A DNA stretch of 41,704 bases, from assembly GCA_020720455.1 (NCBI GenBank), contig DYOQ01000004.1:1-41704 (forward strand), given 5' to 3'. This DNA comes from Bdellovibrio sp. GTDB taxonomy: Bacteria > Bdellovibrionota > Bacteriovoracia > Bacteriovoracales > Bacteriovoracaceae. Position numbers and translations under genes: made by a program. Shown in pieces: positions 10,061 through 41,704 of this stretch. How positions within the stretch are numbered: the stretch's first letter is position 1; every line of letters starts with the position of its first letter. The notes below the pieces were generated by a model that ran no database searches, was not told the DNA's origin, and saw only the letters and a list, made by a program, of their open reading frames with translations.

Positions 10061-10847
10061 ATGGGTAGTCTTTGTAGGATTATATTTTTTATCGAACACT
10101 GTTTTTGCAGAGTTTTGTTACCACAAACATTATATTGTTAGCGATTTTGATGACACTATCAAAACGTATCACTCTAAAAGTTTAATGAGTAAGCTTTATT
10201 ATGCACTTTGGAAAACGGATATCAATGCTGGCTTTGCTACTCTTATAAATGGAATGGCGAATGGTTCGATTGCAAAAGGTGAAGAACGAAAAGATTGTAC
10301 TAACGAGATGTTTACCGTGCTAAGTGCTTCTGGAAAAGTTTTGAAAAGTTCGGTTGTAGAATTGCTAGAAAAAAACAGATTTGTTAACAATGAAGTTATT
10401 CTTAAGCCTGTTGGACTAAAAACGTTTGATTATAAGCTAAATTACTTGTACCAGCTTGTCACAAGGGTGAACAACCCTTTTATTTTAATTGGTGATGACA
10501 CAAGTTTTGATCCCTCCGTATATCGTAAGTTTTCACTAATGGGTTTTGATGTTCTTGCGACTTATATTCATAATGTAAAGAATGTGAGTGTATACCCAGA
10601 TCAGAAGGTTTACCTTACAGCGTTTGATATTGCGGTGAGTGAATATAGCGAAGGAAGATTGGGTGTGGATGTTGTTTTAGCAGTAGGAAGAGAGGTCTTG
10701 GAGGCAAATGATGATTTGGTAATTCCTCCATACGGTTACTGTCCAACAGATGCATATAAAAAGCAGTTAGAGTTACCAGCAAAAATTGCAGAGCTAAGAG
10801 AAGAGATTGGCAAAAAAATATCGGCCATTTGTAAAAAGAGAAATTAG
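10026..10847 (+). CDS. exported App1/DUF2183-like HAD phosphatase
   Basis: The frame is open further upstream, but the ATG at 10026 is chosen because it gives a clean signal peptide (KWVVFVGLYFLSNTVFA). It overlaps the previous gene by 35 bases. Motif I of HAD phosphatases is VSDFDDTIKT (Asp40, Asp42). Near residue 156 the protein reads LIGDDTSFDPSVYRKF, which resembles the LIGDSGQxDPEIY block of the App1 phosphatidate phosphatase catalytic domain. A lipid or other periplasmic phosphoester substrate is therefore possible, but not shown. The gene is the last of the operon, and its stop overlaps that of the convergent response regulator gene. Confidence 0.7.
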   Translation: MEKSLRLVRKFKWVVFVGLYFLSNTVFAEFCYHKHYIVSDFDDTIKTYHSKSLMSKLYYALWKTDINAGFATLINGMANGSIAKGEERKDCTNEMFTVLSASGKVLKSSVVELLEKNRFVNNEVILKPVGLKTFDYKLNYLYQLVTRVNNPFILIGDDTSFDPSVYRKFSLMGFDVLATYIHNVKNVSVYPDQKVYLTAFDIAVSEYSEGRLGVDVVLAVGREVLEANDDLVIPPYGYCPTDAYKKQLELPAKIAELREEIGKKISAICKKRN

Positions 10848-11245
10848 TTAAGAATCCTTGCCATCTCTTTTACAAGAGTCTGTTGAGTGAATGGCTTTAA
10901 TAGAATGTATTTGATTCCGATATCTCTTGCCTCAAGAATAAAATTTTTATCACTCATTCCAGAAATAAGAAGAAAAGGGATTTTTACAGCTTCTCCACCT
11001 CTATCTTTTAAGGATTGAAATACGGAGACCCCTGTCATCCCAGGCATATCGTAGTCGCACATAATAAATTGAGGGAGGCTTAGTCCATCTTTAAGTTGAG
11101 CATCAATGTACTCGATAGCATCTTTACCATTTGGTGACATTTTGATGGTTTTAAATCCGATATTTTGCAAAATCAGGTGCAATGTTTGTCTGATCTCTGC
11201 ATCATCGTCAATAACGAGAATTCTTAGAGATGATGAAATTGCCAT
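10844..11245 (-). CDS. single-domain response regulator (receiver only)
   Basis: This 133-residue protein is a complete CheY-type receiver with no output domain. The acidic pocket is Asp13-Asp14, the phospho-acceptor is Asp64 in CDYDMPGMTG, the switch Ser lies in LLISG, and the conserved Lys is in LLKPF. It must act through protein partners after phosphorylation by a kinase that is not encoded here. GGAG sits eight bases before the ATG, and an extended -10 element lies upstream. The 3' end overlaps the convergent phosphatase gene by four bases. Confidence 0.92.
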   Translation of the reverse strand: MAISSSLRILVIDDDAEIRQTLHLILQNIGFKTIKMSPNGKDAIEYIDAQLKDGLSLPQFIMCDYDMPGMTGVSVFQSLKDRGGEAVKIPFLLISGMSDKNFILEARDIGIKYILLKPFTQQTLVKEMARILN

Positions 11246-24074: not shown

Positions 24075-24503
24075 TTATTTTTTCTTACTATTAATTATTT
24101 TTTGGTAGGTAGAGTTCCAATGGCCAACTCTTTTTTTGGCCCGATCAATGACAGTTATTAGTTGGTTTTGAGTGAAGGGTTTTGATATGTATGCGAAGGC
24201 GCCAGCTTTAAAACTGGCCATTAATTCAGTCATATTATGCTTTCCTGAAGTTACTACTACATCAACTCCTTTCTCTAGGTTAAGAATTTTTCTGAGTAGG
24301 TCATCGCCGGCCATCTCCTTCATTTTGATATCCGTAATAACAATATTAACGGTGTTGTTTTCGATAAACTCCATGGCCGATAAAGGAGAATCAAATTTGG
24401 TAACTTTCAAATCTTGATCATCTTCTAGAAAGGTTTCCATAATTTCTAAAATATCTTCTTGGCCATCAACTAAAACGACTTGTAAAGGGTACTGTATCAG
24501 CAT
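24075..24503 (-). CDS. single-domain response regulator, second of a duplicated pair
   Basis: This 142-residue receiver domain keeps the phospho-acceptor Asp58 (VITDIKM), Thr/Ser in VVVTSGK and Lys in ISKPF. The acidic pair is VDGQED: the second Asp of the usual DD is Gly14. It shares its plan with the gene directly upstream, including an MLIxxPLxVV start, an FLxxDxDL segment and a C-terminal tail of the type WNxxYQxxIxS beyond the receiver. The two are tandem paralogues, two bases apart. Altered metal binding may lower phosphorylation. No output domain or kinase is present. Confidence 0.87.
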   Translation of the reverse strand: MLIQYPLQVVLVDGQEDILEIMETFLEDDQDLKVTKFDSPLSAMEFIENNTVNIVITDIKMKEMAGDDLLRKILNLEKGVDVVVTSGKHNMTELMASFKAGAFAYISKPFTQNQLITVIDRAKKRVGHWNSTYQKIINSKKK

Positions 24504-36508: not shown

Positions 36509-36895
36509 ATGAGCAAGTTTTCAAAGATTTTATTATTAACGATATTTTTAGTGGCCATTCAGAGTAAGATTGTAGGCGGTGCTGAATTTTCATATACGTT
36601 TATTATTCAAATTTTTGGAGATAGAGTTAAAGTTGTTTCTCCAAAAGCGTACTCAAAAGAGATTAGTGTAATAATTGAGAATAAATCTTTAGAAAAACAG
36701 ATTGGTAAACTTATTAACACAAAGGGAGAGACGTTATCGTTTGTGGTTGTGCCACCAAATGATTCAATCTCAAAAAAATTGAGCGTAGTACAGGGTAATA
36801 AAGTTATCTTTATTCCTTTGTCACCGCCATTTCAGGAGATTGAGCTTATAGAGGGAAAAGAATCATATGAGATTCCTCCGCGACAGAAGTATTGA
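36509..36895 (+). CDS. small exported protein of unknown function
   Basis: The 128-residue product has a signal peptide (ILLLTIFLVAIQSKIVGGA) and a beta-rich mature part (KVVSPKAYSKEISVIIENK, LSFVVVPPNDS, KVIFIPLSPPFQEIELIEG) that might adopt a small sandwich fold similar to cupredoxins or fibronectin-type domains, but no metal ligands are seen. Its 3' end overlaps the metallophosphoesterase gene by 29 bases, so both are read from one mRNA. No ribosome binding site is visible. Confidence 0.5.
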   Translation: MSKFSKILLLTIFLVAIQSKIVGGAEFSYTFIIQIFGDRVKVVSPKAYSKEISVIIENKSLEKQIGKLINTKGETLSFVVVPPNDSISKKLSVVQGNKVIFIPLSPPFQEIELIEGKESYEIPPRQKY

Positions 36896-38009
36896 CAAAA
36901 CCATTATCGTCATTTCAGATACCCACTTAGGGGCGGGGGCCTATGTTAGTGGTAGGAAAAATCTTTTGGAAGATTTTTTTTATGATGCTGAGTTAGTCGA
37001 TCTGCTCGATTATTATTCAACAGGAAGTTTCGCAAATAGGTATGTCGAGCTAGTTATTAATGGAGATTTTGTTGATTTATTAGCAGTTCCATTTGTGAAT
37101 TTTTTTGATGATGAGTTTTGGAGCGAAGAGGCTTCAATTGAAAAATTAAAGTTAGTCCATGAAGCACATAAAGAGGTTTTTACTGGCCTTGAGCAGTTTC
37201 TAGTTCAAAAAAATAAAAAGCTAACTTACATAATTGGCAATCATGATGCTGAGTTGATATTACCAAGAGTAAAAAATAGTTTTATGGATTTTTTTTCACA
37301 AGAGGTTAGAGAGAATATTCAAATAATTTGTAATGAGGATAGTGGTTATTTTCCTTCGAAGGGAATCTGTATCAAACATGGCCACGAGTATGAGGTGGCC
37401 AACTCTTTTCAACCAAAAGATTCTGTTATTGTAGACAAAGAGGGCCGGCGGTTTTTTCTGCCATCTTGGGGACATTACTATGTGACTAGAATAATAAATA
37501 AATTCAAAGAAGAGAGGCCATATATTCATTCTGTTCGGCCCATTAGAAAGTTTATAATTAATGGCCTTATCTATGATGCTTTTTTTACAATGAGATTTTT
37601 GGTCGCAAATATTGTCTATTTTGTTATGGTACGATTTATCTATTTTTTTAAACAAGAGAGAAGGATTCGTTCAACATTTATTAATGCCAAGAAGGAACTA
37701 AACTTTTTTTTAGATACGGAAGAGGTTATAAGGGATACGTTAGAAGATAGCGATGAGATAAATACTTTGATAGTTGGCCATACTCATCGGCCAGAGTATA
37801 CTTCAACTGGAAGTGGTAAAGTTTTTATTAATACTGGCACCTGGACAAAAATGCACGATCTAGATTTTGGTAAACGCAGAGAGGGTATTGCTCTTACTTA
37901 TGCTAAAATTGATATTCTTGAAGAAAAGAAAACAATGAACCATAACGTTGAAGAAGGGCTCTTCGTTTGGAAGGGGAGGGATCGCTCTCCGTTTGTGGAG
38001 TTTATCTAG
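36867..38009 (+). CDS. calcineurin-like metallophosphoesterase
   Basis: All five metal-binding blocks are present: ISDTHLG (16-22), INGDFVD, IGNHD (123-127), KHGHEYE and VGHTHRP (from Gly304). The order and the extra helical region between the HGH and GHTH blocks resemble LpxH/YbbF-like and UDP-sugar phosphoesterase families, but the protein (380 residues) is longer than LpxH (about 240). The central insert includes a hydrophobic stretch (MRFLVANIVYFVMVRFIYFF) that could bind the membrane. The substrate is unknown; a lipid phosphoester is plausible. AGGG lies about ten bases before the ATG inside the preceding gene. Confidence 0.82.
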   Translation: MRFLRDRSIDKTIIVISDTHLGAGAYVSGRKNLLEDFFYDAELVDLLDYYSTGSFANRYVELVINGDFVDLLAVPFVNFFDDEFWSEEASIEKLKLVHEAHKEVFTGLEQFLVQKNKKLTYIIGNHDAELILPRVKNSFMDFFSQEVRENIQIICNEDSGYFPSKGICIKHGHEYEVANSFQPKDSVIVDKEGRRFFLPSWGHYYVTRIINKFKEERPYIHSVRPIRKFIINGLIYDAFFTMRFLVANIVYFVMVRFIYFFKQERRIRSTFINAKKELNFFLDTEEVIRDTLEDSDEINTLIVGHTHRPEYTSTGSGKVFINTGTWTKMHDLDFGKRREGIALTYAKIDILEEKKTMNHNVEEGLFVWKGRDRSPFVEFI

Positions 38010-38022
38010 GTCAAATTATTCT

Positions 38023-38514
38023 CTACGTTTCTTTGTAACACAACTCAATGAAAAAGCTACCGTGTGCTGATGCTATTGGAATGGCTATCGTTGTTGTTCC
38101 CGATGGATACTTAATTGTATGATTTTTTCCTTCGATCATTGATGGGATCGCCATATTTGTCTTGTATCCTAGTACTGCTAGCTCTCTTTTAGCATTTCCC
38201 ATGACCATATTACAGATTTCTCCTCCAACATCTGAGATCTCATCTGTATAAGAGTCAAATGTTTCCATTAGCATGGCGCTAGCAACCTTGTAATAAGTCT
38301 GATACGGCCAAGAGATAACTAGCATCCCTTGAAAATCCATGTTGTTGTGGCTTCCTGTTATTCCAAGAACAGCAGAGACTTCACCCTTTGATAAATTATC
38401 TGCTTTAAGAAAAGGTTTTCCTGGTTCAAGTTTTGAAAAAACCATTGTCTCAAAAATGTTTTTGGCAGCATCGATAAATGGTTTCGAAAATTCAAGGAAA
38501 CTATTTGCAGTCAT
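38023..38514 (-). CDS. cheX: CheX-like chemotaxis phosphatase
   Basis: This 163-residue protein matches the CheX/CheC family that dephosphorylates CheY. A helix with FIDAAKNIFETM comes first. A middle strand has VLGITGSHNNMDFQGMLVISW. The active ExxN motif is GGEICNMVMGNAK (Glu99, Asn102), and the dimer region IEGKNHTIKYPSGTTT is typical. It would reset the CheY encoded two genes upstream. AAGGA precedes the ATG. It is the last gene of the minus-strand signalling operon. Confidence 0.85.
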   Translation of the reverse strand: MTANSFLEFSKPFIDAAKNIFETMVFSKLEPGKPFLKADNLSKGEVSAVLGITGSHNNMDFQGMLVISWPYQTYYKVASAMLMETFDSYTDEISDVGGEICNMVMGNAKRELAVLGYKTNMAIPSMIEGKNHTIKYPSGTTTIAIPIASAHGSFFIELCYKET

Positions 38515-38532
38515 AAACTTAGTCCTTATGTC

Positions 38533-39042
38533 TTAAAGTCCTAAACTTGCCATCAAATCGTCGATGGAGTTTTGGGACAATGTTTTCTTATCATCTTTCT
38601 TAATTGTACATGATGCTCGTTCAATATCCTTAAATTTTTCAGATAACCATTTTAATCGTGTAACGAAAGCTTCAGTGTTTAATCCTTTGAGTTGAGTGTC
38701 GTCACCTGTTTTAATTTTTTCCATCATTTTTGTTAGCAAATCTACAGCATCAAATAAGACTGCGACTACAACATTTAAAAGTGGAACATCTTTGACTTGG
38801 CTTGATTTATATCCAATTAGTTTTCCGAGCTCACAAAATGTTGCAATTTCTGTGGCCCCAATAGACCGAGCTGCACCCATCACTCTATCAATTATTTGTC
38901 CAAAATTTTCTAAGTTATGCCCGCTTGTTGGATTGTCCTCTAAATTTTCTAAGTGTTCTTCAAGTTTTTTAAAAAGCCCAAGAGATTCATTCGCAAATTC
39001 TACAACAACCTCTTTCATGCTTGGATCATTTAATATATCCAT
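38533..39042 (-). CDS. HPt-like protein without phospho-histidine, with FliM-type CheY-binding tail
   Basis: The first 115 residues form amphipathic helices like the HPt domain of CheA (FANESLGLFKKLEEHLENLE, then IIDRVMGAARSIG). In HPt domains the second helix reads HxxKGxAxxxG. Here the His position is Asp52, so phosphotransfer is unlikely. The extreme C-terminus is LSQNSIDDLMASLGL (155-169), very close to the LSQxEIDxLL peptide at the N-terminus of FliM that binds phospho-CheY. The tail is joined by a basic, flexible linker (KKDDKKT). I infer a CheY-P-binding adaptor. GGAGA precedes the ATG. Confidence 0.65.
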   Translation of the reverse strand: MDILNDPSMKEVVVEFANESLGLFKKLEEHLENLEDNPTSGHNLENFGQIIDRVMGAARSIGATEIATFCELGKLIGYKSSQVKDVPLLNVVVAVLFDAVDLLTKMMEKIKTGDDTQLKGLNTEAFVTRLKWLSEKFKDIERASCTIKKDDKKTLSQNSIDDLMASLGL

Positions 39043-39067
39043 GAAACGTTCTCCAGTTGTTAACGGC

Positions 39068-39463
39068 CTAAGTGAAAATTTTCTCTATTTTTTCTTTTAA
39101 CACTTGAGCTGAAAATGGTTTAACAATGAAGTTGCTGACACCGGCCTTTACTGCAATAACAACGTTTCCTTGTTCAGCTTCTGCTGTAATCATTAAAAAT
39201 GGTAGATCTTTAAACTGATCGCTACTTCGAATATTTTTTAAGAGTGTAAGTCCATCCATCTCTGGCATGTTCCAGTCGGAAAGAATAAATTCAAACGGAA
39301 CTCCAGCCTCTTTTGATTGTTGAATCATTGGCCAGGCACGTGCTCCATCATCGGCTTCAGTTATATCTTTAAACCCGACTTGGGTTAGCATATTTTTGAT
39401 AATTTTTCTCATCGTTGCCATGTCATCTACAATTAGAATTTTCATGTTTGCTCTTATTGCCAT
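39068..39463 (-). CDS. cheY: CheY-type response regulator
   Basis: A complete 131-residue receiver: Asp13-Asp14, phospho-acceptor Asp63 in LSDWNMPEMDG, Thr in MITAEAE and Lys in IVKPF. It is the closest to classic CheY among the four receivers in the window. AGAGGAG, six bases ahead of the first ATG, supports the start used rather than Met7. It is encoded between a GYP protein and an HPt-like protein and followed by a CheX phosphatase; no CheA kinase is nearby. Confidence 0.93.
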   Translation of the reverse strand: MAIRANMKILIVDDMATMRKIIKNMLTQVGFKDITEADDGARAWPMIQQSKEAGVPFEFILSDWNMPEMDGLTLLKNIRSSDQFKDLPFLMITAEAEQGNVVIAVKAGVSNFIVKPFSAQVLKEKIEKIFT

Positions 39464-39481
39464 GTTGAACTCCTCTGCTAT

Positions 39482-40519
39482 TTATGCTGCGCGCTTTAGC
39501 TCATCTGTAAAACGTGATATATTTTCAATGTTCTTAGATATTGTATCTCCAAAATCAAATTCAAGTCCAGCATCAATAGAGTGATTTTGAATTTTTTTTA
39601 AAACATCGTTAATGTTATATTTTGATCCAGTTATTCTTCCGCTAGCGTAGTCAATGATATGTGAAATTGATCCAAGAATTAGAGAAGCCGGATGAATCGC
39701 CCTTTCCATCTTTTGGTATGGGTATCCGCTGCCACTAGATCTTTCATGATGGTCGAGTATTGTGTCGATGCTGCTAGAGCTTAATTCAAGTTTACATTTT
39801 TTAATTAAGTGCTGTGCTAGTCCTGGATGCTTTTGAAAATCGCTCTTTTCTTGACCATGGCACTCAACTTCTGGGCGTAGTATCATTGCTCTATCAAGTT
39901 GGGTTACACCGATATGATGAAGAAAAGTTGAACAGATAATGTCGGATAATGGTTCGTAACCATCTATGTTGTTTTGTTTAGCAAACAGGTATGTGAGGGC
40001 CACTGTTCGATTAATATTATTGTCATCAATTAGGAGTTGCCTTGCAAAATATCTGGCAAGACTTACAGTATGAGAGATGGTTACTTTGAAAGTAAGAACC
40101 TCTTTTCTAACTCGTTCAATTAGAGGTAAAAAACAGTTACGATTAATTGCATCGTTTATTTCTTTTGCAAAATTTAACGGTGGAAGAGGTGATGCTTCTA
40201 ATTCTTTTATATACTGGTCTCGTTCTATTTGTAGTTTATGAATTTTGGGACGAGCAAGGTCTGGTATATCTGATTCACTTAGGCCGCATACGTTTAAAAA
40301 GGTTCGTTTTTGATTGATCGGTATTGCTAAAATAGCACCTTTGGAAATTATATACTTGAGGAATGATTTTTTTTCTTCAATTAATGGTGAGTTGCCATAT
40401 AGATATGGAGAGTAACTATTGTTAACTTGGTTGTAGACGTATAGGTGAAATGGAAAAATCTCTACTGATTTTGGTAACATCTCAAATTGAATGTGAAAAA
40501 AAGATCTTTTTTCTTCCAT
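39482..40519 (-). CDS. HD-GYP family protein with altered metal site
   Basis: The first 130 residues are an unassigned N-terminal region. From about 150 the HD-GYP pattern is visible: ISHTVSLARYFA, FLHHIGV (201-202), KHPGLAQHLIKKC, LDHHERSSGSGYP (GYP at 265-267) and ASLILGSISHIID. HD-GYP proteins hydrolyse cyclic di-GMP using a metal site in which HD is essential and LHDIGK is conserved. Here HD is HH (His202) and the following Lys is Val. The protein may bind rather than degrade cyclic di-GMP, or use a different metal arrangement. It follows the GAF-like gene by one base and precedes cheY by 18. Confidence 0.8.
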   Translation of the reverse strand: MEEKRSFFHIQFEMLPKSVEIFPFHLYVYNQVNNSYSPYLYGNSPLIEEKKSFLKYIISKGAILAIPINQKRTFLNVCGLSESDIPDLARPKIHKLQIERDQYIKELEASPLPPLNFAKEINDAINRNCFLPLIERVRKEVLTFKVTISHTVSLARYFARQLLIDDNNINRTVALTYLFAKQNNIDGYEPLSDIICSTFLHHIGVTQLDRAMILRPEVECHGQEKSDFQKHPGLAQHLIKKCKLELSSSSIDTILDHHERSSGSGYPYQKMERAIHPASLILGSISHIIDYASGRITGSKYNINDVLKKIQNHSIDAGLEFDFGDTISKNIENISRFTDELKRAA

Positions 40520-40520
40520 G

Positions 40521-41704
40521 TTAACTCGCCTTTAGTTTTCCAAATAGTGTTGCAAAGAACCCTTCTTTTTTTTCATTGTCTTTTTTGTTCTTGGAGCTTG
40601 TTCCTAAATATTTACCCTTAGTTCCTAGGTTGTGTGATTTTTCAAGCAGTATTCCTCTTGAACTTTCAAGAAGTACTTCAATTTGATTGCTATTTTTTTC
40701 TTCAAGTTTGCTATAAAAGAATACAATACCAACTCCTATTTTGTTAGCACCTTCCATAAATGGATAGACGAACTGATTAGATGAAGCTTGAAATGAGGAA
40801 TCGCTCCACGTTGGAAGTGTTGCCCTCTTCCAATCTTCTATGTGAGTATTAAACTCATCCTCCCATTTTTTTTCGGTTTGTAATACATTATGGCCAACGA
40901 CCTCTTCAGCAAAATCGTTCGTAGTATTGTTATAACTTAAAATTACGGCAACTCCATTATAGTGCTGGTATATCTGCTTCATTGTGAACAGCAAAATATT
41001 TTCGTTGTTTACTTCTTTGTTTAAGTACATGTTTAGTATTGGAATTAGATGCTCAAACCCTTTTGAATCAGGCCCAATGACATCGTTATCGCTTGTGTCT
41101 TCTTCTTCAGCTAGCTTGAGTTTGCTCGTTTGGTTTAGCTGATCCTTGAAATCTTTAGAGTGAGTATCATCTCGTCTTATCTTTTCAGGTGTAGACATGG
41201 AGATAGCAACCTCTTCAAACTCTTTTTTCAATCGCCCATAGTCTATTGTTTGTTCGCTAGATTTTGAAATATCCCATGAGATGGAGATCTCATTTTTCTT
41301 CTTCTTTGTATAGTCAAGTTCGAATTCTGCTTCATTGTTAACAATTAAACCTTCCCATGAATTGGATGTGGTATCGTCATCTTTTGCGTTAGAAACTTCA
41401 GCACTATCACTTAGTGTTAGTTCTGTGTTTTTTTGTTTGTTATCTTGAATGAGCTCTAGATTTGATTGGTCTTTTGAGCTGATTTTTTTTAGTTCACTCA
41501 GATTGCTCTCTAGCTCTTGATTATTAACAACATCATCTTGATTTATTAGTTCTAGGGTGGTTGACTCTGTCTTGTTCTTGTTTGAATTAGTCTCGTCTAA
41601 AATAAGTTCAGTGGCCTTAGCATCATTTTGATTTCCATCTTCAGTTAGCTCGAGTTCATTTCTATTTTTATGTTTTTGATCATCAGCTTCAAGATTTAAA
41701 GAAG
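40521..41704 (-). CDS. GAF-like sensory protein with acidic repeat region, 5' end beyond window
   Basis: The frame is open with no stop to the window edge and no ATG, GTG or TTG between 41232 and the edge, so the gene is cut off at its 5' end. A TTG at 41231 is not a credible start. The visible N-terminal part (about 160 residues) is acidic and low-complexity with a recurring hydrophobic-acidic motif (ELELTED, ELILDET, LELINQD, LELIQD, ELTLSDS). The C-terminal part (about 90 to 200 residues after position 41231) alternates strands and helices in the manner of a GAF domain (ILLFTMKQIYQHYNGVAVIL, VYPFMEGANKIGVGIVFFY). It ends in a basic tail GFFATLFGKLKAS that could touch the membrane. It is the first visible gene of the signalling operon. 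Confidence 0.65.
   Translation of the reverse strand, partial: SLNLEADDQKHKNRNELELTEDGNQNDAKATELILDETNSNKNKTESTTLELINQDDVVNNQELESNLSELKKISSKDQSNLELIQDNKQKNTELTLSDSAEVSNAKDDDTTSNSWEGLIVNNEAEFELDYTKKKKNEISISWDISKSSEQTIDYGRLKKEFEEVAISMSTPEKIRRDDTHSKDFKDQLNQTSKLKLAEEEDTSDNDVIGPDSKGFEHLIPILNMYLNKEVNNENILLFTMKQIYQHYNGVAVILSYNNTTNDFAEEVVGHNVLQTEKKWEDEFNTHIEDWKRATLPTWSDSSFQASSNQFVYPFMEGANKIGVGIVFFYSKLEEKNSNQIEVLLESSRGILLEKSHNLGTKGKYLGTSSKNKKDNEKKEGFFATLFGKLKAS

Follow-up and report, generated by a model that had tools for sequence, protein, structure and literature searches.

A probable CheY-P control module with a histidine-less HPt protein beside a flagellin gene of Bdellovibrio sp.

Five adjacent genes at one end of a 41,704-nucleotide stretch of a Bdellovibrio sp. 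genome (the window, positions 1-41704 of the 65-kb contig C54; genome of 2.7 Mb in 92 contigs) probably form a flagellar module for the control of phosphorylated CheY (CheY-P), in which a CheZ-like, His-less HPt protein and a pseudoenzyme of the Bd1817 type would take part. The best-founded portion is the combination of a motor-type CheY with CheX and the HPt-like protein as a CheY partner, which we regard as likely. A preliminary description, made from the window sequence alone, had recognized five closely spaced minus-strand genes (gaps of 1 to 25 bases) for CheY, CheX, a His-less HPt, a variant HD-GYP protein and a GAF-like sensor. All of these are present, CheX with its catalytic motif and the GAF-like portion as the C-terminus of its protein, and the gaps in the open reading frame (ORF) listing are 1, 18, 25 and 18 bases. 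Gene order, families, residues, conservation and co-occurrence were read from the sequences themselves. The genes, in the order of transcription, are as follows.

40521 to 41704, minus strand: first gene ('GAF' gene), encoding the C-terminal part of a protein of about 799 residues (ORF 40521-41702, 5' end open)
39482 to 40519, minus strand: degenerate HD-GYP protein of the Bd1817 (PDB 3TM8) type, assigned by Pfam and profile
39068 to 39463, minus strand: motor-type CheY, a Pfam receiver with residues D13, D14, D63, T93 and K115
38533 to 39042, minus strand: His-less HPt with a predicted CheA-P1 fold and a FliM/CheZ-like C-terminal peptide, assigned by profile and model
38023 to 38514, minus strand: CheX-family CheY-P phosphatase, assigned by Pfam and a match to PDB 3iic

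In the mechanism that we propose, CheA kinases encoded elsewhere would phosphorylate the motor-type CheY, CheY-P would act on FliM, and CheX would take the phosphate off CheY-P. The flexible C-terminal peptide of the HPt protein, which is of the FliM/CheZ type, would tether CheY, and the helical bundle would offer an invariant Asp (D52) and an amide (Gln or Asn at position 49) at the place of the normal phospho-His. The His-less HPt may thus hold CheY-P or speed its hydrolysis, substituting for the CheZ that the phylum lacks. The HD protein and its receiver/acidic-linker/GAF partner would regulate this HPt/CheY step, probably by ligand binding or scaffolding and not by hydrolysis of cyclic di-GMP (c-di-GMP). 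The steps that we infer are the binding of CheY by the HPt-like protein, any phosphatase activity of the latter and what the HD and GAF proteins do together.

CheY, CheX and the flagellar context

The CheY scores 95.5 bits with the Pfam receiver domain, and its receiver residues, given above, are complete. When V. cholerae CheY (PDB 3to5/4hns) was used as the query, the window CheY ranked first of the 36 receiver matches in the genome, with 56% identity and an E value of 6.6e-41; the next receivers reached an E value of 1.7e-24 and 39-43% identity, and none exceeded 43%. By sequence, no other CheY of the genome is as motor-like, and the protein is predicted to be motor-type and to act on FliM. 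The window holds two more stand-alone receivers (10844-11245 and 24075-24503), which are 27-29% identical to V. cholerae CheY.

CheX is recognized by PF13690 with 72 bits against a cut-off of 27 and matches the CheX-like protein 3iic of the PDB with an E value of 6e-32. Its catalytic motif is present in all 11 relatives compared.

38209 to 38220, minus strand: CheX catalytic motif E99-x-x-N102, located by sequence, its role taken from PMC3035606

With a family match above the cut-off, the ExxN motif and a gene close to cheY, it shows no notable difference from the CheX of T. maritima or B. burgdorferi.

The absence of CheA, methyl-accepting chemotaxis protein (MCP) and flagellar genes, pointed out in the preliminary description, holds inside the window. 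However, a flagellin gene (C54:43269-44129; PF00669, E value of 5e-38) lies 1.6 kb past the window, divergent from the operon and about 190 bases from the start of the first gene, and the genes for CheA/CheW and MCPs are on other contigs of the same genome, as is the gene for FliM (contig C55). Of the che or flagellar cluster that might have lain past the window edge, the flagellin is there, but a che cluster is not. The picture of a stand-alone circuit leading from CheY to a second messenger, away from motility, is not supported in view of the motor-like CheY, the CheA, MCPs and FliM of the genome, the adjoining flagellin and the occurrence of the HPt family almost only with FliM.

The region between the first gene and the flagellin gene was also searched for sigma28 sites. 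In a weighted scan, 8 of 13 relatives showed a sigma28-like site that ends 1-8 bases ahead of the first gene (combined p = 4.5e-5; p = 3e-6 for the position by itself). A second sigma28-like site is directed towards the flagellin gene and usually lies some 125 bases ahead of it, and a scan with the strict sigma28 consensus found little. These sites lend modest support to flagellar co-regulation and are not proof of it.

The His-less HPt protein

The HPt-like protein is a stand-alone protein of 169 residues. It scores 21.4 bits, below the Pfam HPt cut-off of 24.6, and no Pfam or NCBIfam model matches its family above cut-off. Its profile is related to that of the T. maritima CheA P1 domain (2ld6; E value of 2.5e-5). 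The AlphaFold model (mean pLDDT 80) consists of five bundle helices and a separate C-terminal helix, and Foldseek matched it best to CheA3 P1 of R. sphaeroides, in complex with CheY6 (3kyj; prob 1.0, E value of 0.013). The profile and the model agree, and the predicted fold is that of CheA P1. Two segments are of particular importance.

38875 to 38910, minus strand: pseudo-phosphosite helix, residues 45-56 (ENFGQIIDRVMG), with E45, Q49, D52, R53 and G56; D52 replaces the phospho-His
38536 to 38580, minus strand: C-terminal CheY-binding-like peptide LSQNSIDDLMASLGL, comparable to the N-terminus of the genome's own FliM

When the protein is aligned with CheA P1 of T. maritima, Asp52 occupies the position of the phospho-His, and all 31 aligned relatives share it. 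Position 49 holds Gln or Asn in every one of the 31, and position 45 holds Glu or Asp in 26 of them. R53, G56, A58, K74, Y78 and R129 are also invariant. Because Asp replaces the phospho-His, the protein cannot carry phosphate on His, and an ordinary phosphotransfer HPt was rejected (phospho-His absent in 31/31). It further differs from the P1 domains in having Met for Lys at position H+3, in standing alone and in having an additional C-terminal peptide. In the same genome, a simple motif scan located an HPt with the usual His at two che loci, C12 ('FHTIKG') and C42 ('VHTVKG'), and none at the che locus C70. Several genomes have second copies of the HPt family that are shorter and more divergent and lack the C-terminal peptide (e.g. 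G002:C1:2356433-2356858).

The C-terminal peptide resembles the predicted CheY-binding N-terminus of FliM (LSQDEVDALL) as well as the C-terminus of CheZ. The FliM/CheZ-like pattern occurs in 26 of 31 members of the HPt family and is absent from the 759 remaining ORFs in these loci, and this peptide strengthens the early suggestion that the protein is a CheY-P adaptor. The likeness to CheZ (PF04344) goes further: an acid and an amide lie on one helix (E/DxxxQ in most family members), and the gene adjoins cheY in many Bacteriovoracaceae. However, the bundle is of the CheA-P1 type, in contrast to the long hairpin of CheZ, and the tether peptide is closer to that of FliM. Membership of the CheZ family was rejected, as PF04344 was found only below significance (4 of 11 members, best E value of 0.011).

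CheZ and the CheC/CheX phosphatases put an amide and an acid into the active site of CheY (PMC3035606), and the conserved acid/amide pair of the HPt-like protein could, by analogy, supply chemistry of this type. A phosphatase activity is thus conceivable, although we lean slightly against it. R. sphaeroides provides a parallel, an HPt-fold protein working on a motor CheY. CheA3 dephosphorylates CheY6-P (PMC2924250) and holds two HPt domains without His (PMC10542144). CheA3 is a large CheA and not a separate protein, and the available text of these sources reports no FliM-like tether.

Alternatively, the His-less HPt may be only an adaptor or buffer of CheY-P that competes with FliM or passes CheY-P on to CheX or to a polar HD/GAF scaffold, itself not a phosphatase. 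The FliM/CheZ-like tether, the CheX encoded next door, the loss of ExxxQ in Bdellovibrio sensu stricto and the HD gene, which is the most constant neighbour of the HPt gene, all fit such a role. However, all 31 relatives keep an acid/amide pair at the phospho-site, which is beyond the need of a plain tether, and acid and amide match the CheZ/CheX chemistry (PMC3035606). We therefore consider the adaptor role alone rather unlikely.

Several observations weigh against the CheZ-like control module. Bdellovibrio sensu stricto has Ala at position 45 and Asn at position 49, giving AxxxN; Q/N49 and D52 remain invariant, but the exact DxxxQ of CheZ is not universal. The linker ahead of the C-terminal peptide (residues 144-157) was modelled at low confidence. 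With CheX, the module already has a phosphatase, so that another might be superfluous. The support from the sigma28 sites is modest, with p = 0.14 in the genome of the window, and the position of the site would imply a nearly leaderless mRNA.

The HD protein

The HD protein matches HD_5 of Pfam with 39.9 bits (cut-off 27.2). The profile of its family spans residues 20-284 of 3TM8, nearly end to end, with an E value of 1.2e-11, and the layout of an N-terminal domain, a helical linker and an HD domain is common to Bd1817-type proteins. In this family, K-H231, H257, H258, E259 and the GYP/GFP motif are retained, the Asp of HD and the D305-type Asp are changed to His in most members, and the first His of HD is variable. 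In the window protein, His replaces the metal-binding Asp at 202 and at 287, and HHE and GYP are retained. It therefore lacks the conserved metal ligands of active HD-GYP phosphodiesterases and is probably not a c-di-GMP phosphodiesterase; this activity was rejected as the most likely reading. Bd1817 itself is without phosphodiesterase activity, and its regulatory role has been described as still to be revealed (PMC4159591). The two proteins share the layout, a degenerate site and a gene near an HPt-family gene (adjacent and divergent in the case of Bd1817). However, Bd1817 retains HD and lacks the Tyr of GYP, whereas the window protein retains GYP and has HH in place of HD.

Since the ligands are changed and Bd1817 is inactive, ligand binding or a scaffold role appears more likely than hydrolysis. 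That the ligand is a cyclic dinucleotide, so that such a signal would enter through the HD protein, is a tentative idea and on balance doubtful. The preliminary description had suggested a circuit that links CheY phosphorylation to c-di-GMP or another second messenger; in such a c-di-GMP circuit, the HD protein would be the enzyme and CheY or the HPt its switch. The HD_5 match, the retained HHE and GYP, and the activity of the distant HD relatives PmGH and V-cGAP speak for an enzyme. However, both metal-binding Asp positions are His, the first His of HD is lost in many relatives, the solved relative is inactive, and the CheY is motor-type in a locus that adjoins flagellin. The circuit is unproven, and we consider it quite improbable.

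Conservation of the neighbourhood

Conserved gene order in relatives had been suggested as a check, and the neighbourhood proved to be conserved. The order in which the flagellin gene diverges from the genes for the receiver/GAF protein, HD protein, CheY, HPt and CheX, with a metallophosphoesterase gene convergent at the far end, was found in whole or in part at about 17 loci of the same family, and all five genes are adjacent in six of them (L042, L043, L045, L049, L051 and L055). At four others (L044, L047, L048 and L050), the acid pair of the local CheY is damaged, and neither HPt nor CheX adjoins it. Judged from these residues, the operon CheY of these loci is decayed towards a pseudo-receiver. 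One of the four genomes (G020) has an intact CheY-HPt-CheX trio elsewhere, again beside an HD-domain gene (L114).

These data bear on the possibility that this is a chemotaxis locus of the ordinary kind, in which cheY and cheX are a dispersed pair among unrelated neighbours and form no special module. CheY and CheX are indeed standard. Among 51 genomes with a strong match to the HD family, 12 are without a strong HPt-family match, and in 14 of the 39 with both, the two genes are on different contigs. However, they lie within 7 kb of each other in the other 25, and the HD-HPt adjacency extends to Bdellovibrio and to other families. When loci were chosen solely for holding an HPt-family gene (L099-L118), an HD-domain gene was found within 600 bp of it in 16 of 20. 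Moreover, the trio in G020 forms a unit separate from the GAF-HD pair, and here too its neighbour is an HD protein. We give little credence to an ordinary locus. At one locus (L116:1-9481), the His-less HPt gene directly follows cheA and ends a complete che operon that encodes CheW-receiver, MCP, CheB, CheY, CheR, CheY and receiver-HPt-CheA.

In a B. bacteriovorus genome of the HD100 type, an HPt-family gene divergently adjoins the gene for the match to 3TM8 (Bd1817); 309 residues were matched with no visible difference. The genes cheY, cheX and one for a receiver-like/HD fusion protein are located about 4 kb from this pair, so that the same ingredients lie within about 6 kb. The N-terminus of the fusion protein, which we read as receiver-like, has no Pfam match. 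The gene order is different from that in the window, the receiver-like and HD parts are fused, and no flagellin was seen in the stretch examined. Based on these comparisons of sequence, the phylum shows the same set of components again in a different order.

Distribution in the phylum and the absence of CheZ

The HPt family was found in 145 of 291 genomes of the phylum. FliM is present in 144 of these 145 genomes compared with 113 of the 146 others (p = 6e-10), and CheZ (PF04344) was above the Pfam cut-off in none of the 291. Among 84,980 species genomes, a pattern scan, which reaches only relatives sharing the chosen peptides, gave matches only in records of the same phylum or group and in one unplaced proteobacterial metagenome-assembled genome. 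The literature on CheX, CheY and HD-GYP operons and on His-less HPt or CheZ, in a search that covered few subscription papers, yielded no description of the module, which does not prove novelty.

If the HPt-like protein acts on CheY-P, this would explain how a fast-swimming phylum with many predators manages without CheZ, and a phosphate carrier would have been converted into a switch-off protein. In the boldest form of the proposal, the His-less HPt proteins would descend from a CheA P1 domain and make up a CheY-P phosphatase class of their own, with Asp at the phospho-His position, an invariant amide close by and a FliM-like tether. They would stand in for CheZ in much of the Bdellovibrionota, under the control of a Bd1817-type pseudoenzyme that senses a cyclic dinucleotide. 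We think this improbable. If true, second messengers would tune motor reversals in predatory bacteria. Cyclic-nucleotide signalling controls predation in Bdellovibrio, and a link through the HD protein would join it to swimming direction. The proposal also offers a testable role for two orphans, the pseudoenzyme Bd1817, with a structure available since 2011, and the His-less HPt family.

The first gene and the neighbouring genes

The window ends at the start of a scaffold gap of 100 N (C54:41705-41804). The join is probably artificial and interrupts a single gene, because the 55 bp on both sides are identical. When the gene was closed across the gap, a single open frame of 799 residues that starts at C54:43075 was obtained. 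The closest relatives have the gene intact (831-1091 residues), with a conserved N-terminus and C-terminal domain and a long acidic linker.

The product has a receiver-like N-terminus, which lies outside the window, an acidic, repeat-rich linker and a GAF-like C-terminal domain; no domain match was found in Pfam or NCBIfam. The best Foldseek matches of the C-terminal model are GAF domains (prob 0.9-0.99, E values of about 0.01). The N-terminus gave a weak hhalign match to a receiver (prob 50% over 47 columns), and a profile comparison with the receiver-like portion of the fusion protein at the HD100-type locus gave no match. The linker contains 10 [ST]xLxL repeats compared with 2.3 expected by shuffling (L041:5806-7076, window 40521-41702), and some relatives have IDxxYxG repeats in their place. 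The repeats suggest a multivalent scaffold.

On the other side of the operon, one gene of the conserved neighbourhood remains.

36867 to 38009, plus strand: metallophosphoesterase gene, convergent with the five-gene operon

It is kept beside the operon in most relatives of the family, with 45-54% identity.

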